Both the position numbers and the translations under genes were made by a program. Positions 31,418-39,715 of a stretch of 64,000 bases of DNA are shown piece after piece (position 1 is the stretch's first letter; each line of letters begins with the position of its first letter). Source of the stretch: Winogradskyella marincola (GTDB lineage Bacteria; Bacteroidota; Bacteroidia; Flavobacteriales; Flavobacteriaceae); contig NZ_JARSBN010000004.1 in the NCBI RefSeq assembly GCF_029624125.1, positions 372,001 through 436,000 on the forward strand, in the 5' to 3' direction. Below the pieces are notes generated by a model. The model saw only the letters and a program-made list of their open reading frames with translations, searched no databases and had not been told where the DNA came from.

Positions 31418-32983
31418 TTGTTTACCAATAGCTACTTTAAAACCCTTTTTCTTCTTGTTGTTGCATTCTCAATTAATGCCCAAGAAACAATCGCAACAAA
31501 AGAAACAGAACTCTTTTCTTTAAAAGCTGAATTAGAAAATGCAATTAAAGAAGATAACCGCACCTCCATTGGTATAACAAACATTAAACTTGCAGACTTT
31601 TTTTATCGTATTTCACTTTATAAAGAAGCCACTACCTATTACCAAAACTACTTAGAATTACATCTTCCTAAGGATTCTAGTTTTATTAAAGTTCAAAACC
31701 AACTGGCTCTTATTAACTTAGAACTAAAACAATATGGTTTGGCAGAAAGCCATGCTTCACTTGCGCTAAGGACTTCAGAGTATATAAATTACAAAAAAGG
31801 AGAAGCAACATCTAACGCTTTGTTAGGGAGTGTGGCAGAAAAACAAAGTAACTACAACGATGCACTAAAATTTCAGAAAAAGAGTTTAGCCTTGTTTAGC
31901 TTTTTAAAAGACAGCACTGGCATTGCCATTACTAACGAAAACATTGGCAGTATTTACGAAGATTTAGAGCAATACCAAAAGGCCTTAAATTACTTTAATG
32001 TTGCACAGAGCTTTTCTAAGAATAGTCCATGGGATTTAAAAATAAATATCATTAATAACATTGGTGATATTAACAGAAAAACAAAAAAATATATTGAAGC
32101 TATCGGCTACACAGAACAAGCTCTGGAACTCGCCAAAACCTCAAACAACCAGTCACAATTGGTTAGCGCTCTTAAAGATCTATCCAGAACCTATGCTGAC
32201 ATGGGCAACTTTTCCAAAGCTTATGAATACCTCAACAATCAAAACATTGCTAACGAAGAAGAGCTTATTCAAAACAACAATGAAATAGTAAGCGCACTAC
32301 AAATTCTACACGATGTAAAAGAAAAAGAGAATGAGGTGCAATTACTAAATAAGCAAAACGAAATAAACAAAGTACAGCAAAGCATTATCCTTATTATAGC
32401 AAGTGCTCTAACTCTAGGACTATGTGCACTTTTTTTATACTGGAAGAAAAGAAAAAAACACGAAAAACACATCTTAGAATATCAGCAACAATTACTACAG
32501 GCAGATTTAGATAAAAAAGCAGCCAAAGAAATTGCTCTAAACAGAGAAATAGACATTAAAGTCTCTGCTCTCACAAATTATAGTCTTCATATTGCGCACA
32601 AAAACAAAATGCTTTCTGACATTTCTAAGACACTCTCTAAATTAAAAGACCGCAACAGTGCACTGGTTTCAAAAAAGCTAAAAGATATTGTTAAAGACAT
32701 AGAATCAGATTTAGAAAACAATAATGAATGGACAGAACTTATGAGTTATTTTGGCCAGATACATCCAAGTTTCTTTTCAAAACTTAAAAATGATGCTAAA
32801 GAAAAACTCTCTTCTTCAGAAATGCGATTGTGTATGTTGCTCCGTCTTAACCTTTCATCTAAAGAAATTGGAGGTATCTTAAGAATTACATCAGATAGTG
32901 TTAGAATAGCACGTTACAGACTTAGAAAAAAACTGCCTTTAGAATCCAAGGACGACCTACAAGCTTATCTTCTCAATTTATAA
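31418..32983 (+). CDS. TPR sensor-like protein with membrane helix and LuxR-type C-terminal HTH
   Basis: This 521-residue protein has a signal-like N-terminus and then five or six TPR-like repeats over about 60-290 (AISLYKEA-type helices, NIGSIYEDLEQYQKALNYFN, TEQALELAKTSNN). One membrane helix lies near 325-345 (SIILIIASALTLGLCALFLYW). A coiled-coil stretch follows, then a C-terminal HTH with LSSSEMRLCMLLRLNLSSKEIGGILRIT and SVRIARYRLRKKL. This is the common Bacteroidota layout of a membrane-bound transcription regulator. It starts with TTG at 31418; no in-frame ATG exists upstream. It precedes a TonB receptor-phytase pair, which it may control. Confidence 0.85.
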   Translation: MFTNSYFKTLFLLVVAFSINAQETIATKETELFSLKAELENAIKEDNRTSIGITNIKLADFFYRISLYKEATTYYQNYLELHLPKDSSFIKVQNQLALINLELKQYGLAESHASLALRTSEYINYKKGEATSNALLGSVAEKQSNYNDALKFQKKSLALFSFLKDSTGIAITNENIGSIYEDLEQYQKALNYFNVAQSFSKNSPWDLKINIINNIGDINRKTKKYIEAIGYTEQALELAKTSNNQSQLVSALKDLSRTYADMGNFSKAYEYLNNQNIANEEELIQNNNEIVSALQILHDVKEKENEVQLLNKQNEINKVQQSIILIIASALTLGLCALFLYWKKRKKHEKHILEYQQQLLQADLDKKAAKEIALNREIDIKVSALTNYSLHIAHKNKMLSDISKTLSKLKDRNSALVSKKLKDIVKDIESDLENNNEWTELMSYFGQIHPSFFSKLKNDAKEKLSSSEMRLCMLLRLNLSSKEIGGILRITSDSVRIARYRLRKKLPLESKDDLQAYLLNL

Positions 32984-33109
32984 CCAATGTTTTGTCAACC
33001 TTTATGCAATGTTACGTAATTGTAAATGTTGCCATGTTTTATAGTGTTTTTAGGCAGGTAAGTTACTTTTTGTTAACGCTCATTTTATCTACAAGTACAG
33101 TCTTGAGTA

Positions 33110-33117
33110 TAGTTTTG
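33110..33117 (+). promoter_or_regulatory. Putative -7 element for the TonB receptor-phytase operon
   Basis: TAGTTTTG fits TAnnTTTG, 23 bases before the ATG at 33141. There is no convincing -33 box, which would fit an activated promoter. Confidence 0.35.
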
Positions 33118-33140
33118 AGGTAAACAAAAATCAACCTTAA

Positions 33141-35975
33141 ATGAAACATTATTTTACCCTTTTATTATTAACAATATCTTTCTTCGGATTGGCTCAATCC
33201 GGAAACTTACAAGGTGTTATAACAGATAAGGATGGTATTACCATTCCTGGCGCAACGGTGTCTGTTGCATCGCTTAACAAAGGAACTGTAACAGATTTTA
33301 ATGGAAAATACGTTCTGGTAAATATTCCTGAAGGAAAGCATACCATTACCGTAAAATATCTTGGTTTTTCAGATGTTACTCAAGATATAGACATTGTAGC
33401 AGACCAAACTGTAGCATTAAACTTTACCCTAAATTCTGAAGATACCGAATTAAAAGAAGTTACAATTAGTGGCTTTGGACTTAGCGGACAAGCAAGAGCA
33501 CTAAACACCCAAAAGAACAAACAAAACATTACTAACGTAGTGTCTACAGACCAAATTGGTAAATTCCCAGACGCAAACATTGGAGATGCTGTAAAACGTA
33601 TTCCTGGTATTACAATGCAGGTAGATCAAGGTGAAGCACGTAACATAATTGTTCGTGGTCTTTCTCCTCAATTAAACTCAGTTACCTTAAACGGAAGTAG
33701 AATTCCGTCTGCTGAAGGCGATAACCGTAACGTTCAAATGGATTTAATTCCATCGGATATGATTCAGACTATCGAAGTAAACAAAGCCGTAACGCCAGAT
33801 ATGGATGCTGACGCTCTTGGTGGTTCTGTAAACTTAATTACGCGTACATCGCCTCAAGGTTTCCGTTTGTCTGCAACAGTTGGTTCTGGCCTTAACTTTA
33901 TTACAGACAAAAGAATTTTAAACGGATCGTTCTTAGTTGGAGACCGAAGTAAAAACGATAAATTCGGTTGGATGGTTTCTGCATCTATTAACGATAACGA
34001 CTTTGGTAGCGATAACGTTGAAGCAGAATGGACAGACGAGTTTGAATTTAACAATGGAGATGCTGACAACCTCGAAGCTGTAGATGTTAATCCTTATGCT
34101 AACGTTTTTGAAATTAGAGAATACCTTGTACAACGTGTACGTCGTAGCTTTTCAGCTAATTTAGATTACAAATTCGATGATAATAATTCTGTTTATTTCA
34201 AATCAATCTACAACTGGAGAGACGATAGAGAAAACCGTTTTAGATTAGAGCATGAAATCTTAGATGGCGAAGATATTGAGGCTGGTGATTTCTCAGTAGA
34301 TGGCAATGGCAACCTTACTATGTTCCCTGTTGAGGCAAAACGCCAATCTAAAGGTGGTATTAATAACGACCGCAACAAAAACAGACGTTTAGAAGACCAA
34401 CGTATGCAAAACTACAGTCTTGGTGGAGAGCATTTATTGAGCAACGTACAACTAGACTGGATGGCATCTTTCGCTAAAGCTTCAGAAGAGCGTTTAAACG
34501 AGCGTTATTTAGAGTACGAAAGCGAATATGCTATCAACTTTAATAACAATCAAGATAAACCTTTATTCTCGCCTACAAATCCTGCTGATGCTAGCTTCGC
34601 AGATTTTGAATTTGGCGAGCTTACAGAAGAAAACCAATATACAGAAGAAGAGGACATTAATATTTTTGTGAATGCACAATTACCTTTATCTGTTATTGAT
34701 GGTAATGATGGCTTTTTAAAGTTTGGTGCTAAAACAAGATTAAAAAATAAAAACAGAACAAACGGTTTTATCGAATACAGTGATGAAACTGGCGCTTTAG
34801 AATTTTTAGGAATGGTACCTACAAGAAGCTATTCTGATACAGACTTCTTAGCTGGTAGCCAATACCAAATCGGCACCTTTGCTAGTCCAGAATTTTTAGG
34901 AAGTATAAATCTTAACGACACTAACCTTTTTGAAGCTGAAGATTTACCAGAAGAATATGCTACTGCTAACTTCGATGTTAACGAAAACGTATATGCTGGT
35001 TACGCTATGCTTAACCAAAACATTACAGACAAATTAAGTGTTTTGGCAGGTGTGAGATTAGAGCATACTTCTATAGAAAGTACAGGTAACGAGCTTGTTT
35101 TTAACGAAGATGGTGATGTTGATGGTATTGCTGAAGTTAAAGACGAAAACTCATACACCAACATATTACCTGGTGTACATTTTAAATATGATATAACGGA
35201 TAATACCGTTTTACGTTTTGCTTGGACTAACACTTTAGCAAGACCAAACTATGTAGATTTAGTACCATACAGAGAAATCAATAACGAAGATGAAGAAATT
35301 TTCTTAGGAAACTCTGAACTAGACCCAACAACATCTATGAATTTCGACTTTATGGCAGAGCACTACTTTAAATCTGTTGGTATTGTTTCTGGAGGTTTAT
35401 TCTACAAAAGTATATCTGACTTTACTTATGTGTTTCAATCTGAAGATGAAAACGGCTACGAGGTTTACCAACCTTTAAATGGTGATGACGCTTCTGTATT
35501 TGGTGCAGAAGTATCTTTTCAACGTCGATTAGATTTCTTACCTGGTTTTGCTAAGAATTTCAGTATTTATCTTAACTATACCTACTTAACTTCCAGTGCA
35601 GATGGTATCCGTAACGAGGATGGTGAAAAGCGTACAGATTTAGATTTACCACAAACGTCGCCAAATATGTTCAACGGTTCATTAGGTTATGCTGGTAAAA
35701 AATTCAGCTTACGTTTATCGGCTAATTATTCTGATGCTTATATCGATGAAATTGGTGGAAATGCGTTTGAAGACCGTTATTACGATCAGCAATTCTTCTT
35801 AGATTTCAATGCAAACGTGGCTTTAAATAACAACTTAAGCCTTTACTTAAACCTTAATAACATTACCAACCAACCGTTACGTTATTACCAAGGTGTGAGT
35901 AGCAGAACAATGCAAATGGAATACTACGATATGCGTTTAACATTCGGATTAAAATATGATCTATTCAAAAAGTAA
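33141..35975 (+). CDS. TonB-dependent receptor with carboxypeptidase-regulatory-like N-domain
   Basis: This 944-residue receptor has a signal peptide (ending FFGLAQ). The regulatory-like domain (LQGVITDKDGITIPGATVSV) is followed by the plug with GRIPGITMQVDQGEARNIIVRG-type residues, NSVTLNGSRIPS and DADALGGSVNLITRT. The barrel ends in FGLKYDLFKK. It belongs to the oar/CirA-like class rather than SusC, since no SusD follows. The beta-propeller phytase starts two bases after its stop, so the likely ligands are products of phytate breakdown, phosphate-bearing inositol compounds. Specificity is inferred from the neighbour. Confidence 0.92.
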   Translation: MKHYFTLLLLTISFFGLAQSGNLQGVITDKDGITIPGATVSVASLNKGTVTDFNGKYVLVNIPEGKHTITVKYLGFSDVTQDIDIVADQTVALNFTLNSEDTELKEVTISGFGLSGQARALNTQKNKQNITNVVSTDQIGKFPDANIGDAVKRIPGITMQVDQGEARNIIVRGLSPQLNSVTLNGSRIPSAEGDNRNVQMDLIPSDMIQTIEVNKAVTPDMDADALGGSVNLITRTSPQGFRLSATVGSGLNFITDKRILNGSFLVGDRSKNDKFGWMVSASINDNDFGSDNVEAEWTDEFEFNNGDADNLEAVDVNPYANVFEIREYLVQRVRRSFSANLDYKFDDNNSVYFKSIYNWRDDRENRFRLEHEILDGEDIEAGDFSVDGNGNLTMFPVEAKRQSKGGINNDRNKNRRLEDQRMQNYSLGGEHLLSNVQLDWMASFAKASEERLNERYLEYESEYAINFNNNQDKPLFSPTNPADASFADFEFGELTEENQYTEEEDINIFVNAQLPLSVIDGNDGFLKFGAKTRLKNKNRTNGFIEYSDETGALEFLGMVPTRSYSDTDFLAGSQYQIGTFASPEFLGSINLNDTNLFEAEDLPEEYATANFDVNENVYAGYAMLNQNITDKLSVLAGVRLEHTSIESTGNELVFNEDGDVDGIAEVKDENSYTNILPGVHFKYDITDNTVLRFAWTNTLARPNYVDLVPYREINNEDEEIFLGNSELDPTTSMNFDFMAEHYFKSVGIVSGGLFYKSISDFTYVFQSEDENGYEVYQPLNGDDASVFGAEVSFQRRLDFLPGFAKNFSIYLNYTYLTSSADGIRNEDGEKRTDLDLPQTSPNMFNGSLGYAGKKFSLRLSANYSDAYIDEIGGNAFEDRYYDQQFFLDFNANVALNNNLSLYLNLNNITNQPLRYYQGVSSRTMQMEYYDMRLTFGLKYDLFKK

Positions 35976-35976
35976 A

Positions 35977-36993
35977 ATGATGAAGAAAACCTTAATACTA
36001 GGTGTCATTTCTGCTGTAGTTTTTTCTTGCGGAAACGGATTACCAGAAATTGCACCAACACTTAAATCCGAAAAATTACCACACGATAGTGACGACCCAG
36101 CAATTTGGATTAATCACAAAAACCCTGAACAAAGTATTGTCTTTGGCACTGATAAAGATGAAATTGATGGTGGAGTTTACGCTTTAGATTTAGACGGAAA
36201 AATCATAAAAGAGAAAAGTTTAACTGGAGTAAGTTATCCTAATAATGTGGATGTAGAATACGGTTTTAAACTGAACGACTCTACAAAAACCGACATTATA
36301 GTATTTTCTGAACGTGAGAAAAACCAAATTAGAGTATACTCAGTACCTGATATGAAACCATTGGATAATGGAGGCTTCAAAGTGTTTGAAGATGAAACAG
36401 ATGTTTTACAAAAACGACCAATGGGAGTTTCTATTTATAAGAATCCATCAACTAAAGAGATTTCTGTATTTGTGAGTAGAAAAGCAGGACCAACGGAAGG
36501 TTATTTATACCAATATGCCTTGGTTAGCGATTCTTTAGGAGTACATTCTAACTTATTGCGTAAAATGGGAACTTTTAGTGGCCAAAAAGAAATTGAAGCC
36601 ATTGCTGTAGATGACGAATTAGGTTTTGTGTATTTCTCTGACGAAGGCGTTGGTATTAGAAAATACCACGCAGACCCTAAAAAGGGAAACAAGGAAATTG
36701 CACTATTCGGAACGGATAATTTTAAGGATGACATTGAAGGTATTGCGATTGCAACTTACCCAAACGGAGAAGGTTTCCTTATCGTGTCTAACCAACAAAA
36801 CCACAGTTTTAACATCTTTAAACGAAGCGATAACAGCTTTGTAAAGGAAATAAACTTAGGAACGATTGAGACAGACGGTTGCGATGTTGTAACGACACCT
36901 TTAGGCAAAAAATATCCAAACGGACTATTTGTATCTATGAATGACGAGCAAGACTTTTTCTTTCATGCTCTTGATTCATTAAAGTTGAAGTAA
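35977..36993 (+). CDS. Beta-propeller phytase (3-phytase), lipoprotein
   Basis: The protein has a lipoprotein signal (AVVFSCGNG) and the beta-propeller phytase pattern: DDPAIWINHKNPEQSIVFGTDK, NNVDVEYGF, RPMGVSIY, EIEAIAVDDELGFVYFSDEGVG, DDIEGIAIATY and SNQQNHSFNIFKR. These residues ring the calcium and phosphate sites. The enzyme removes phosphates from phytate at the cell surface or in the periplasm. It starts at 35977, two bases after the TonB receptor stop (ATGATG, either Met possible). About 338 residues, normal for the family. A terminator follows at 37027. Confidence 0.93.
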   Translation: MMKKTLILGVISAVVFSCGNGLPEIAPTLKSEKLPHDSDDPAIWINHKNPEQSIVFGTDKDEIDGGVYALDLDGKIIKEKSLTGVSYPNNVDVEYGFKLNDSTKTDIIVFSEREKNQIRVYSVPDMKPLDNGGFKVFEDETDVLQKRPMGVSIYKNPSTKEISVFVSRKAGPTEGYLYQYALVSDSLGVHSNLLRKMGTFSGQKEIEAIAVDDELGFVYFSDEGVGIRKYHADPKKGNKEIALFGTDNFKDDIEGIAIATYPNGEGFLIVSNQQNHSFNIFKRSDNSFVKEINLGTIETDGCDVVTTPLGKKYPNGLFVSMNDEQDFFFHALDSLKLK

Positions 36994-37056: not shown

Positions 37057-37065
37057 TTTAAAAAA

Positions 37066-37145
37066 CACCCCTAAAGTCCCCTCAAGGGGACAGCCCTCAT
37101 AAGTTTAATTGTAACTATTGTCCCCTTGAGGGGACTTCAGGGGTG
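37066..37145. repeat. Inverted pair of GTCCCC palindromes (REPIN-like)
   Basis: Two 27-base arms (37066-37092 and 37119-37145) are inverted copies with one mismatch. Each contains its own palindrome GTCCCCTCAAGGGGAC or its complement. Outer ends are CACCCCT and AGGGGTG. The 26-base spacer is AT-rich. This is the GC-richest non-coding stretch of the window. Confidence 0.85.
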
Positions 37146-37213
37146 TAATTATAGTTTTGCCAACACTATTCCCATTTAATTTCCGTTATTGTATTGAAAA
37201 CCAACCAATCTTT

Positions 37214-37936
37214 ATGAAACGCTTAGTACTCTTTTTAAGTCTTGTATTTCTTTTACAAAGTTGTAAATCTTCATACAGCAAAACTGAATTACTTAAAGAA
37301 AATAAAGCCTTAAAAGAACGTATTAAAAAACTTGAAACTGCTGATACTGTAAATCAAGAAGCCGCTATTGAACTTAAAAAAATGAATGTGGTTTATCGAG
37401 GTGTTATAAATCCAGTTTACATATCAAAACCTAATGCTGTTTCCTTTGAAGCTACTGCTCCAGGCCTGAGAAAAATTGACAGTTTAGGAAATTATAATTT
37501 AAGTCCTGGTACAGGTAGAGCAGTAGATATTACAATAAAATCTAAACTTAAAAATGGAGATTCTTTAACCGAAACAAAAACATTGAGGATTAAAGATATT
37601 TCTGCACCTATTGGCACAATAAATGGCATTGGTTGTGGTAGTAAATGTGAACTTAAATTGAAGAAAGAAGATTTAACTGATGCTGTAATAAATGCTGAAA
37701 TGAAAAACTTTTTACATGATTTAGGCATAGCAGTGATTTCATTTAAGATTAAAATGCCTCACTATAGAGTAATTAAAATAAGCGGTAATAAAATGAATGT
37801 TAGAGCTAATGATTTATTCACTTTACTTCAGCCTGATGATTCCGTAATAATATTCGATATAAAAATTAGACTTTCAGGCAACTCTAGGTACAAATTAAAA
37901 GGTGTTGCACCTATAATAATTAAAATAATAGAATAA
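37214..37936 (+). CDS. Lipoprotein with GldM C-terminal-like domains
   Basis: This 240-residue lipoprotein (VFLLQSCKSS) has a coiled-coil start (TELLKENKALKERIKKLE). It then has two beta domains resembling the C-terminal part of the gliding/T9SS protein GldM: MNVVYRGVINPVYISKPN with VSFEATAPGL, and a second part with ISAPIGTINGIG, LGIAVISFKIKM and SVIIFDIKIRL near the end. GldM itself has an N-terminal membrane helix and is about twice as long, and gldKLN are not adjacent. It may be a periplasmic or surface adaptor. I start at the ATG at 37214, which opens the signal. Homology is by pattern, not alignment. Confidence 0.75.
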   Translation: MKRLVLFLSLVFLLQSCKSSYSKTELLKENKALKERIKKLETADTVNQEAAIELKKMNVVYRGVINPVYISKPNAVSFEATAPGLRKIDSLGNYNLSPGTGRAVDITIKSKLKNGDSLTETKTLRIKDISAPIGTINGIGCGSKCELKLKKEDLTDAVINAEMKNFLHDLGIAVISFKIKMPHYRVIKISGNKMNVRANDLFTLLQPDDSVIIFDIKIRLSGNSRYKLKGVAPIIIKIIE

Positions 37937-37939
37937 TTT

Positions 37940-39715
37940 CTAAACAATTTCCATCTTCTTCAATAGGAAGCTCGCATTCATATTTTGGCAAACGCCTTTC
38001 TTTAGTTTGTAGTCAAAAAAGAGTTCGTCGTTTTTAATTTCAGCATCAAAGTAGTAGTTTTTTACAGCCTCTAATTCAGTTTCAATTTCAGTAAGACTTA
38101 AATCGTGCGTTGCTATAATTCCTGTAGCATTTTGGCCAACTAATTTTTCTACAAACTTTCTTGAGCCAATGGCTTTGTCAGTTGAATTGGTGCCTTTTAA
38201 GATTTCATCTAAAATCACGAAATAGTTTTTGTCTTCAGCAATAGTGTCTACAATAAATTTTAGTCGTGTAAGCTCACTAAAAAAGTACGAACTATCATCG
38301 GTCAACGAATCTGTAGTACGCATACTTGTAATGAGTTTAATCGGCTTGTATTTGCTTGTTTTCGCACAAATAGGCAAACCAACATTTGCCATAACAATGT
38401 GCAACGCAACCGTTCTTAAAAAGGTACTCTTACCAGCCATATTAGCTCCTGTAACGATGAAAAACTGCTCTTGTAACAATTCTAAATCGCTATCAATTCG
38501 CTTTTCAGCATTCAACAAAGGATGTCCTAAACTTTCGGCTTTAATTGTAATATTTTCTGAAGTAATTTCAGGGTAACTAAAGTCTTGATTATTATAAGCA
38601 TAATTACCCAAAGTGTTGTACGCATCAAAAAACGTCACCACTTCAAACCAATCCTCAACCTTATGTGCATACTTACTAATCCATTGTTCCACACGATAGG
38701 TTTGCCTTATATCCCAAAGCAAATATCCATTTCCAAAAATGGCTGATATGAGGTTATTTCTGTTATCTAAAGCATCTAAAGCTTTTGAGAATTTTGTAAA
38801 TATCTGTGAGGCTTTTTCACCTTCAGACTGTATTTTTTGTTGCTGTTGTTGCAATAACTCAGACTGAAATTCTTTCTGTTCAATTTCTTTCAGTAATAAA
38901 GCATATTGTCTAAAGGTGTCTTTAGCTTTTTCGGTGTTTTGGGCAACATTATTAATTGATTTTAAAAATCTTCCAGTAATCGCTAAACCTAAAAGCAACC
39001 AATATCCAGCATATTTTATTGGAATAATTTCAGTAAATCCTAAGACCAAAAGTGCTACTGAAGCTACACTAAAGCCAATTGTTAACCAATATAATGTAGC
39101 GTTTAAAAATGGTTTATAATCCTTTAGCCATTCAATAATAGATTTTGCAGAATGCTCCACTTTTACACCTTGCGCTACACCAGAATAGTATTGCCTCCAT
39201 TCGGGCTCATCAGCTAATTCTTTAATCGCATTTTGTCTTGCTTCTATATTAGTAATATCGTTTGCCAACAAACAATTAACAAGCGATTGCGTGCCTTCAT
39301 TTATAGTTGTTCTGTTGATGTATTGAAAGAAAGAACCTCTTCCAAACAAATCGATATCTAAACTATAGGCATGAGCAGGATTTTGAAATACTTTTCCATC
39401 TGCTCTATCATGAAAATCGCCAGAAGCTATTTTAATTTCATCTTCATTAATAGTGGCTAAACGTTTGTGTAGTTCGCGTTTGGTTTTAAGATCTGTATGT
39501 CTGGATAGTAAAAACAGAAACACAGCAATGCCAACCACAGCTATAATTGCTGCAACTTGCCAGTTTTGATAGGTTAGATAGATACCAAAGCTAGCCAACA
39601 AAAATACGGTAAGCCTAAGCACACTGTATAATCCCATCTTTTTATACAAATCCTTTGCGGTTTGCTGGTGTATTTGCAGTTGTGCTTTATAAAATGTATT
39701 TGGGTTTTTCATCAT
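37940..39715 (-). CDS. Membrane-anchored MutS-like ATPase
   Basis: This 591-residue protein has a MutS-type ATPase C-terminus: Walker A GANMAGKST (Lys429), Walker B FVILDEILKGTNS, and the His switch ATHDLSL. The mismatch-recognition domain of MutS is missing. Instead there are two pairs of membrane segments (about 30-48 and 52-68; 208-228 and 234-250) before a lever-like helical region. Such proteins are widespread in Bacteroidota and are usually labelled DNA mismatch repair protein, but membrane anchoring makes that role unlikely. It is convergent with the GldM-like gene, 3 bases between stops. Confidence 0.88.
   Translation of the reverse strand: MMKNPNTFYKAQLQIHQQTAKDLYKKMGLYSVLRLTVFLLASFGIYLTYQNWQVAAIIAVVGIAVFLFLLSRHTDLKTKRELHKRLATINEDEIKIASGDFHDRADGKVFQNPAHAYSLDIDLFGRGSFFQYINRTTINEGTQSLVNCLLANDITNIEARQNAIKELADEPEWRQYYSGVAQGVKVEHSAKSIIEWLKDYKPFLNATLYWLTIGFSVASVALLVLGFTEIIPIKYAGYWLLLGLAITGRFLKSINNVAQNTEKAKDTFRQYALLLKEIEQKEFQSELLQQQQQKIQSEGEKASQIFTKFSKALDALDNRNNLISAIFGNGYLLWDIRQTYRVEQWISKYAHKVEDWFEVVTFFDAYNTLGNYAYNNQDFSYPEITSENITIKAESLGHPLLNAEKRIDSDLELLQEQFFIVTGANMAGKSTFLRTVALHIVMANVGLPICAKTSKYKPIKLITSMRTTDSLTDDSSYFFSELTRLKFIVDTIAEDKNYFVILDEILKGTNSTDKAIGSRKFVEKLVGQNATGIIATHDLSLTEIETELEAVKNYYFDAEIKNDELFFDYKLKKGVCQNMNASFLLKKMEIV

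Follow-up and report, generated by a model that had tools for sequence, protein, structure and literature searches.

Why would a flavobacterium carry, away from its gliding genes, a lipoprotein made of the last two domains of the GldM motor arm? The question is raised by a gene in a 64,000-nucleotide stretch of Winogradskyella marincola DNA (the window), which lies on contig C19 of that genome (G000). From the DNA letters alone, its 240-aa product had been described as a lone lipoprotein with GldM C-terminal-like domains, and was suggested to be a periplasmic partner of the type IX secretion (T9SS) and gliding machine, a decoy of it, or a reused fold. The reused fold is the best supported of the three: the protein is best explained as a GldM derivative that has departed from the motor. 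The surprising part of the finding is the exchange of its fourth domain, D4, between genomes, which was absent from the preliminary description, as were the fixed genomic slot and the D4-only genes reported below.

A lipoprotein that retains D3 and D4 of GldM

Pfam detects the third and fourth domains of GldM in the protein (Table 1), PF21602 (GldM_3rd) with 38.0 bits (cut-off 25.2) and PF12080 (GldM_4th) with 47.4 bits (cut-off 24.6), and nothing else above cut-off; D1 and D2 are missing. In a phmmer search of the PDB, residues 49-238 match GldM (6ey4) with an E value of 6.4e-32. The AlphaFold2 model, built with 6 sequences, is of middling confidence (mean pLDDT 77.9, pTM 0.54). Foldseek pairs it with 6ey4 at E 5.9e-17, and the structural alignment to 6ey4 gives Z 16.6 with 38% identity. 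Four GldM/PorM entries range from Z 11.5 to 16.6, against 7.7 for the first unrelated entry. The GldM-like domains noticed at the outset are therefore real, and the structural comparison that had been proposed as a check found the GldM fold.

The protein is derived from GldM but is not GldM. With 89.9 bits it misses the cut-off of 180 of the GldM equivalog model TIGR03517. It shares the fold and the sequence of D3 and D4 with GldM/PorM (TIGR03517; 6ey4, 6ey5, 7cmg), the arm of the T9SS/gliding motor. In contrast to these proteins it lacks the transmembrane motor helix and D1-D2, is lipid-anchored, has lost the conserved D4 loop, exchanges its D4 between genomes and is encoded outside the gldK/gldL/gldN operon. 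Its identity as a GldM D3-D4 lipoprotein with an exchanged D4 is almost certain. Annotation pipelines that name every GldM_4th match 'GldM' would mislabel such proteins.

Table 1. Features of the locus, in window coordinates
Feature	Position	Strand	Basis
Gene of the GldM D3-D4 lipoprotein	37214..37936 (including stop codon)	+	ORF, Pfam, PDB match
Signal sequence and lipobox, residues 1-17 (Cys17)	37214..37264	+	Protein sequence
Predicted helix / short coiled coil, residues 23-48	37280..37357	+	AlphaFold2 model, Leu spacing
GldM D3 (PF21602), residues 50-127	37361..37594	+	Pfam; fold match
Cys141-x3-Cys145 pair between D3 and D4, close to the left boundary of the exchanged segment	37634..37648	+	
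GldM D4, segment exchanged as a cassette; PF12080 matches residues 148-238	37646..37933	+	
PHYR, residues 182-185, in the place of the GldM PG(Q/K)P loop	37757..37768	+	Profile alignment
MutS-family ATPase gene (PF00488) in convergent orientation, bordering the slot on its conserved right side	37940..39715	-	

The membrane helix of the motor is indeed replaced by a lipid anchor, as had been proposed: a lipobox, LLQSC, read by eye from the protein sequence, ends at Cys17. This cysteine is present in 12 of 15 proteins of this short D3-D4 form (hereafter short forms) and absent from the other three, so that the anchor is not essential. An acidic surface-export motif (SDDFE, K-(D/E)2), following the rule given for surface lipoproteins in PMC5080379, was sought after Cys17, where positions +2 to +6 read KSSYS. 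Because no acidic export signal follows the cysteine, the anchor would keep the protein facing the periplasm, most probably at the outer membrane.

The coiled coil mentioned in the preliminary description corresponds to the predicted helix, which carries Leu26, Leu33 and Leu40 together with Asn30 and Ile37, and for which the model confidence is mostly low or intermediate (62, 66 and 49 as block means). It is not the motor helix of GldM. This zipper-like helix may, together with D3, pair two copies of the protein; we infer a dimer from the zipper pattern and from D3, since PMC5790014 reports that D2-D3 of PorM dimerise and that its isolated D4 is monomeric.

A fixed genomic slot

The statement that the gene has no gld neighbours holds. 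The GldK, GldL, GldM and GldN equivalogs lie together on contig C10 (L041). Within the window, translation starts were read for ORFs of at least 100 aa, and family searches covered eleven ORFs (the lipoprotein and ten others). The neighbours in the window are MutS-like, phytase and TonB receptor genes. GldM itself scores above its cut-off in the window genome and in the 9 other genomes directly tested.

The MutS-like neighbour was located in 66 of 68 Winogradskyella genomes, and the slot beside it was read in all 66. A D3-D4 gene occupies it in 13 genomes (the copy of G471 is broken; that of G478 is open but reaches a contig edge) and a D4-only gene in five (four intact, one decayed). The remaining 48 slots have neither gene, and 57-206 bp separate the flanking stop codons there. 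The left neighbour of the slot is rplU-rpmA or, in some genomes including that of the window, a TonB receptor-phytase module; at window positions 32201-36990, regulator-like, TonB-receptor and phytase genes lie between rpmA and the lipoprotein gene. The phytase end also sits in slots that have no D3-D4 gene, and the slot therefore accepts other cargo. Just upstream of the gene, at window positions 37060-37152, is a 93-bp palindromic repeat with 28-nt arms that are 96% complementary. It is matched at four places in the genome, this one included, and G001 and G031 seem to lack it, judging from an alignment gap of about 90 columns.

Beyond the genus, the short form occurs in at least 3 of 394 genomes of the family (G443, G288 and G411), in a survey that scored seven candidates per genome; second matches appeared in G144, G404 and G138, that of G138 being a broken GldM-like frame. 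The genes of G443 and G288 also adjoin a MutS-like gene, and that of G443 is preceded, at a distance of 10 bp, by a D4-only gene. G028 encodes a 213-aa D3-D4 lipoprotein off the slot (L043, 5260-5901), amid small genes of unassigned function. This protein and the broken G471 copy are excluded from the trees and from the loop and entropy counts given below.

Exchange of D4 between genomes

Between related genomes, D4 is replaced as a unit, like a cassette. When the window genome is compared with G001, DNA identity is 91.4% upstream of the gene (gap columns excluded), 98.5% over codons 1-45 and 91.2% from there to the end of D3; it falls to 50.0% in D4 and returns to 92.5% on the MutS side. In 60-bp steps, identity goes from 93 to 60, 48 and 41 and then back to 83 and 96. 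The same drop is seen between G031 and G001 (85, 51, 84) and none between G000 and G031 (86.5, 88.5, 84), while G461 and G003 show the reverse pattern, with DNA identities of 75.6% over codons 1-45 and 98.3% in D4. At the protein level, G000 and G001 share 91% of the N-terminal part and D3 (N+D3) and 34% of D4, whereas their MutS ends do not differ in any amino acid (dN 0) and identity is 94% between their true GldM D4s and 90% between their GldN proteins. A third D4 type is found on the same backbone in G478. G001 and G478 are metagenome-assembled genomes, so that assembly error is a conceivable source of these two swaps; the single-domain swap recurs in a different genus, between G443 and G288 (81% protein identity in N+D3, 31% in D4).

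Consistently, the N+D3 and D4 trees of the 15 proteins conflict and a common history is rejected. In AU tests, the D4 data reject G000, G001, G478 and G031 as one clade (p 6e-12), and the N+D3 data reject two clades formed by D4 type (p 0.001 and 0.006); the clades were picked after the pairwise identities were known, and the trees themselves have modest support (starred inner branches: 3 of 12 in one and 1 of 11 in the other). Synonymous distance between G000 and G031 is 0.46 in N+D3 and 1.3 in the MutS-like gene, so longer pieces of the gene must also move between species. The exchange would proceed by homologous recombination between conserved flanks: to the left the DNA of the N-terminal part and D3, to the right the convergent MutS-like gene. 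Gene conversion from GldM was considered as a source and rejected, as the short-form D4s stand apart from GldM D4s in a tree of 49 D4-like domains, where the branch with all 15 short forms on one side is weak (73/83).

These patterns could also be produced by a dispensable GldM paralogue under weak constraint, whose recombination-prone slot would generate D4 variety by hitch-hiking and drift. The 48 of 66 genomes that do without the gene, the one broken D3-D4 copy and the one broken D4-only copy, the TonB receptor-phytase module that takes the slot in some genomes, and a D3 that evolves fast as well are all in keeping with such a paralogue. However, dN/dS within one D4 type is 0.13-0.28 (four pairs), and the alleles are therefore maintained under constraint. 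The replaced D4s are, moreover, complete, in-frame domains in which fold residues are preserved (Gly191, for example, in all 15 proteins), and the precise one-domain swap is repeated in another genus. We thus consider mere dispensability quite unlikely.

Loss of the docking loop

Within GldM, it is D4 that touches the ring of the gliding/T9SS motor. According to PMC12421860, PorM S460 and PorN A241 cross-link once both are cysteines. In a profile alignment PorM Ser460 falls on Tyr184 of the lipoprotein, which takes the place of the Q/K of the GldM PG(Q/K)P loop. This alignment is made at 17-18% identity, with the PorM chain offset deduced from the construct 224-516 and consistent with the ranges of the structural alignment. 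Among true GldMs (83 distinct sequences from 86 loci, all kept), all 83 have the loop glycine, 81 have Q or K and 80 have the second proline. None of the 15 short forms has the glycine (equivalent to Gly183) or the second proline (equivalent to Pro185); Q or K occurs in 2 of them and the first proline in 12. A C-terminal Glu found in 81 of the 83 GldMs is Arg or Lys in 14 of the 15 short forms. The loop comparison calls for some caution: the PG(Q/K)P letters are missing from PorM itself, and the PorM-PorN contact surface is called "not substantially conserved" in PMC12635249.

In the 10 genomes with both proteins, mean column entropy of D4 is 1.32 in the short form against 0.36 in GldM, and that of D3 is 0.79 against 0.34. 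Of the positions that at least 90% of GldMs conserve, short forms retain on average 0.68 in D3 and 0.47 in D4, and position 184 is the most variable of all those aligned from residue 57 onwards (3.14 bits).

These results bear on the possibility that the protein is a T9SS/gliding accessory, an outer-membrane-anchored D3-D4 dimer that would dock onto the GldKN ring or track and act there as a partner, brake or decoy of GldM. PMC5790014 describes PorM D4 as binding PorN on its own, with D2-D3 dimerising it, and PMC8986121 describes contacts of the periplasmic part of GldM with GldK, GldN and GldO; the short form retains exactly D3-D4, in genomes that, where tested, have GldM. Against this stand the loss of the loop glycine and second proline from every short form and of the C-terminal Glu from nearly all, the swapping of D4 despite a conserved GldN and a nearly constant GldM D4, and the lack of gld neighbours. 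The accessory role is for these reasons unlikely, and a plain GldM decoy is probably not what the protein is. The partner and decoy readings of the preliminary description are thus disfavoured insofar as they imply binding of the ring as GldM does.

A pair of cysteines, 3 to 5 residues apart, marks the D3/D4 junction in 13 of the 15 short forms. SprF and PorG bond GldK through CxC pairs (PMC12635249), and one may speculate that the lipoprotein rides the track in a similar manner, its junction cysteines bonding GldK by disulfide exchange. The spacing is C-x2-4-C and not CxC, however; G411 has no pair and G035 a single Cys, and similar pairs in M56-type proteins and in one D4-only protein suggest a structural disulfide. 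Such a track rider is highly improbable.

A possible recognition role for D4

If the protein has left the motor, what could an exchangeable D4 be for? We propose that it is a periplasmic dimer with an allele-specific recognition head, a reading that is plausible though its chances are a little under even. The lipid anchor would hold it to the membrane, the helix and D3 would pair two copies, and D4 would be the head that recognises a partner. As D4 swaps while the neighbouring genes, GldM and GldN remain nearly constant in the pairs compared, this partner would itself vary between strains and be encoded elsewhere or arrive from outside, which is the weakest step of the proposal. Candidate partners include a variable protein of the envelope, or an antibacterial or phage-borne factor that enters from outside. 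No co-varying neighbour is seen between G000 and G001 in the MutS-like end or the upstream phytase region (91% DNA identity).

Several observations weigh against a recognition head. D3 too varies faster than the D3 of GldM, so that part of the pattern is that of a fast-evolving gene. The gene is absent from most of the slots read and broken in one genome. PorM itself, as noted above, lacks the PG(Q/K)P letters in the aligned loop. No toxin domain was found in the lipoprotein by Pfam, no linked toxin, immunity or defence gene among its MutS-like, phytase and TonB receptor neighbours, and no PADLOC family at E ≤ 1. A mobile-element origin was rejected within the collections searched: the protein had no match among 50,697 records of phages and 72,556 of plasmids, and of 58 stretches of viral contigs that fit a pattern none was confirmed; PHROGs gave weak matches alone (best E 0.027).

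A more specific and more doubtful version of this reading is that of a strain-recognition or immunity protein made from the tip of a T9SS motor. According to this speculation, a constant anchor, coiled coil and D3 present exchangeable D4 alleles, each suited to a different attacker or partner in the envelope, from a pool that is shared across genera via recombination. The TANFOR toxins of Bacteroidetes, as described in PMC7073777, likewise combine a constant carrier with an exchanged C-terminal module. The lipoprotein is not a member of that group, however, as neither a toxin domain nor an immunity neighbour was found and its D4 is a binding fold.

If the speculation is correct, this would be the first docking domain of a rotary motor turned into a polymorphic recognition module, 'first' resting on literature searches, which lay outside subscription papers and found neither a D3-D4 lipoprotein nor D4 exchange in print; extra porM orthologues in F. 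johnsoniae are mentioned in PMC5790014. Should the polymorphism reflect conflict, it would point to an undescribed periplasmic attacker or partner in marine flavobacteria. A natural family that keeps D3-D4, lacks the docking loop and swaps D4 also supplies variants with which to learn what surfaces of D4 bind GldN, GldK or another target.

Other proteins with D4-like domains

D4-like domains are not restricted to GldM and the short form. Apart from the short-form branch, the 49-domain tree groups GldM with full-length GldM-like lipoproteins (98/98) and M56-type with D4-only domains (99/98). Its labels are the analysts' own; Pfam was used to check three D4-only proteins, two full-length lipoproteins out of five and two M56 rows out of nine. 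PF05569 was shown by Pfam in L152 and L205 only, and the three D4-only proteins score below the PF12080 cut-off (15.0-22.5 bits).

M56/BlaR1-type and secreted D4-only proteins share the D4-like domain with the short form, often with a Cys pair before its first strand, but have no D3; D4-only genes occupy the same slot as the D3-D4 gene. It could therefore be asked whether the short D3-D4 and D4-only proteins modulate envelope signalling by competing with, or feeding, the GldM_4th-like domains of M56/BlaR1-type sensors. The presence of such domains in M56 proteins, the grouping of same-slot D4-only proteins with them and the D4-only gene just ahead of the D3-D4 gene in G443 are suggestive. However, the short D3-D4 domains fall outside the M56 group, and of the two Pfam-tested M56 rows (L152, L205) one has 23.8 bits for PF12080, just below the cut-off; nor are the genes known to be linked. 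A signalling role is very unlikely. A family search of eight genomes with absent or doubtful GldM revealed no clear D4 protein without T9SS.

GldM_4th-like domains in M56/BlaR1-type and ExbD-containing periplasmic proteins were noted at L152, L205, L157, L150, L159, L197, L201 and L204, and the window genome has one of this kind (G000:C19:122897-123130, L003). The small secreted D4-only proteins (110-127 aa) lie in the Winogradskyella slot at L103, L105, L112 and L144, and in related neighbourhoods of other genera at L147, L213 (6306-6659) and L219 (4836-5198).

The full-length GldM-like lipoproteins, of about 450-500 aa, are found at L198, L199, L200, L202 and L203 (G439, G262, G175, G272 and G429, respectively) and at L217 (3381-4724). 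Like the short form, these proteins carry a lipobox where GldM has its motor helix, and the first five join it to GldM domains (two of the five tested). These five differ from the short form in keeping D1 and D2, in having no D3 by Pfam and in a D4 that groups with GldM; Pfam recognises GldM D1, D2 and D4 in L199 and L200. The gene of G262 sits a few kb downstream from gldKLMN-like genes. In G254 (L220, 4482-6032), GldM itself seems to be in two open frames, between gldL-like and gldN-like genes.
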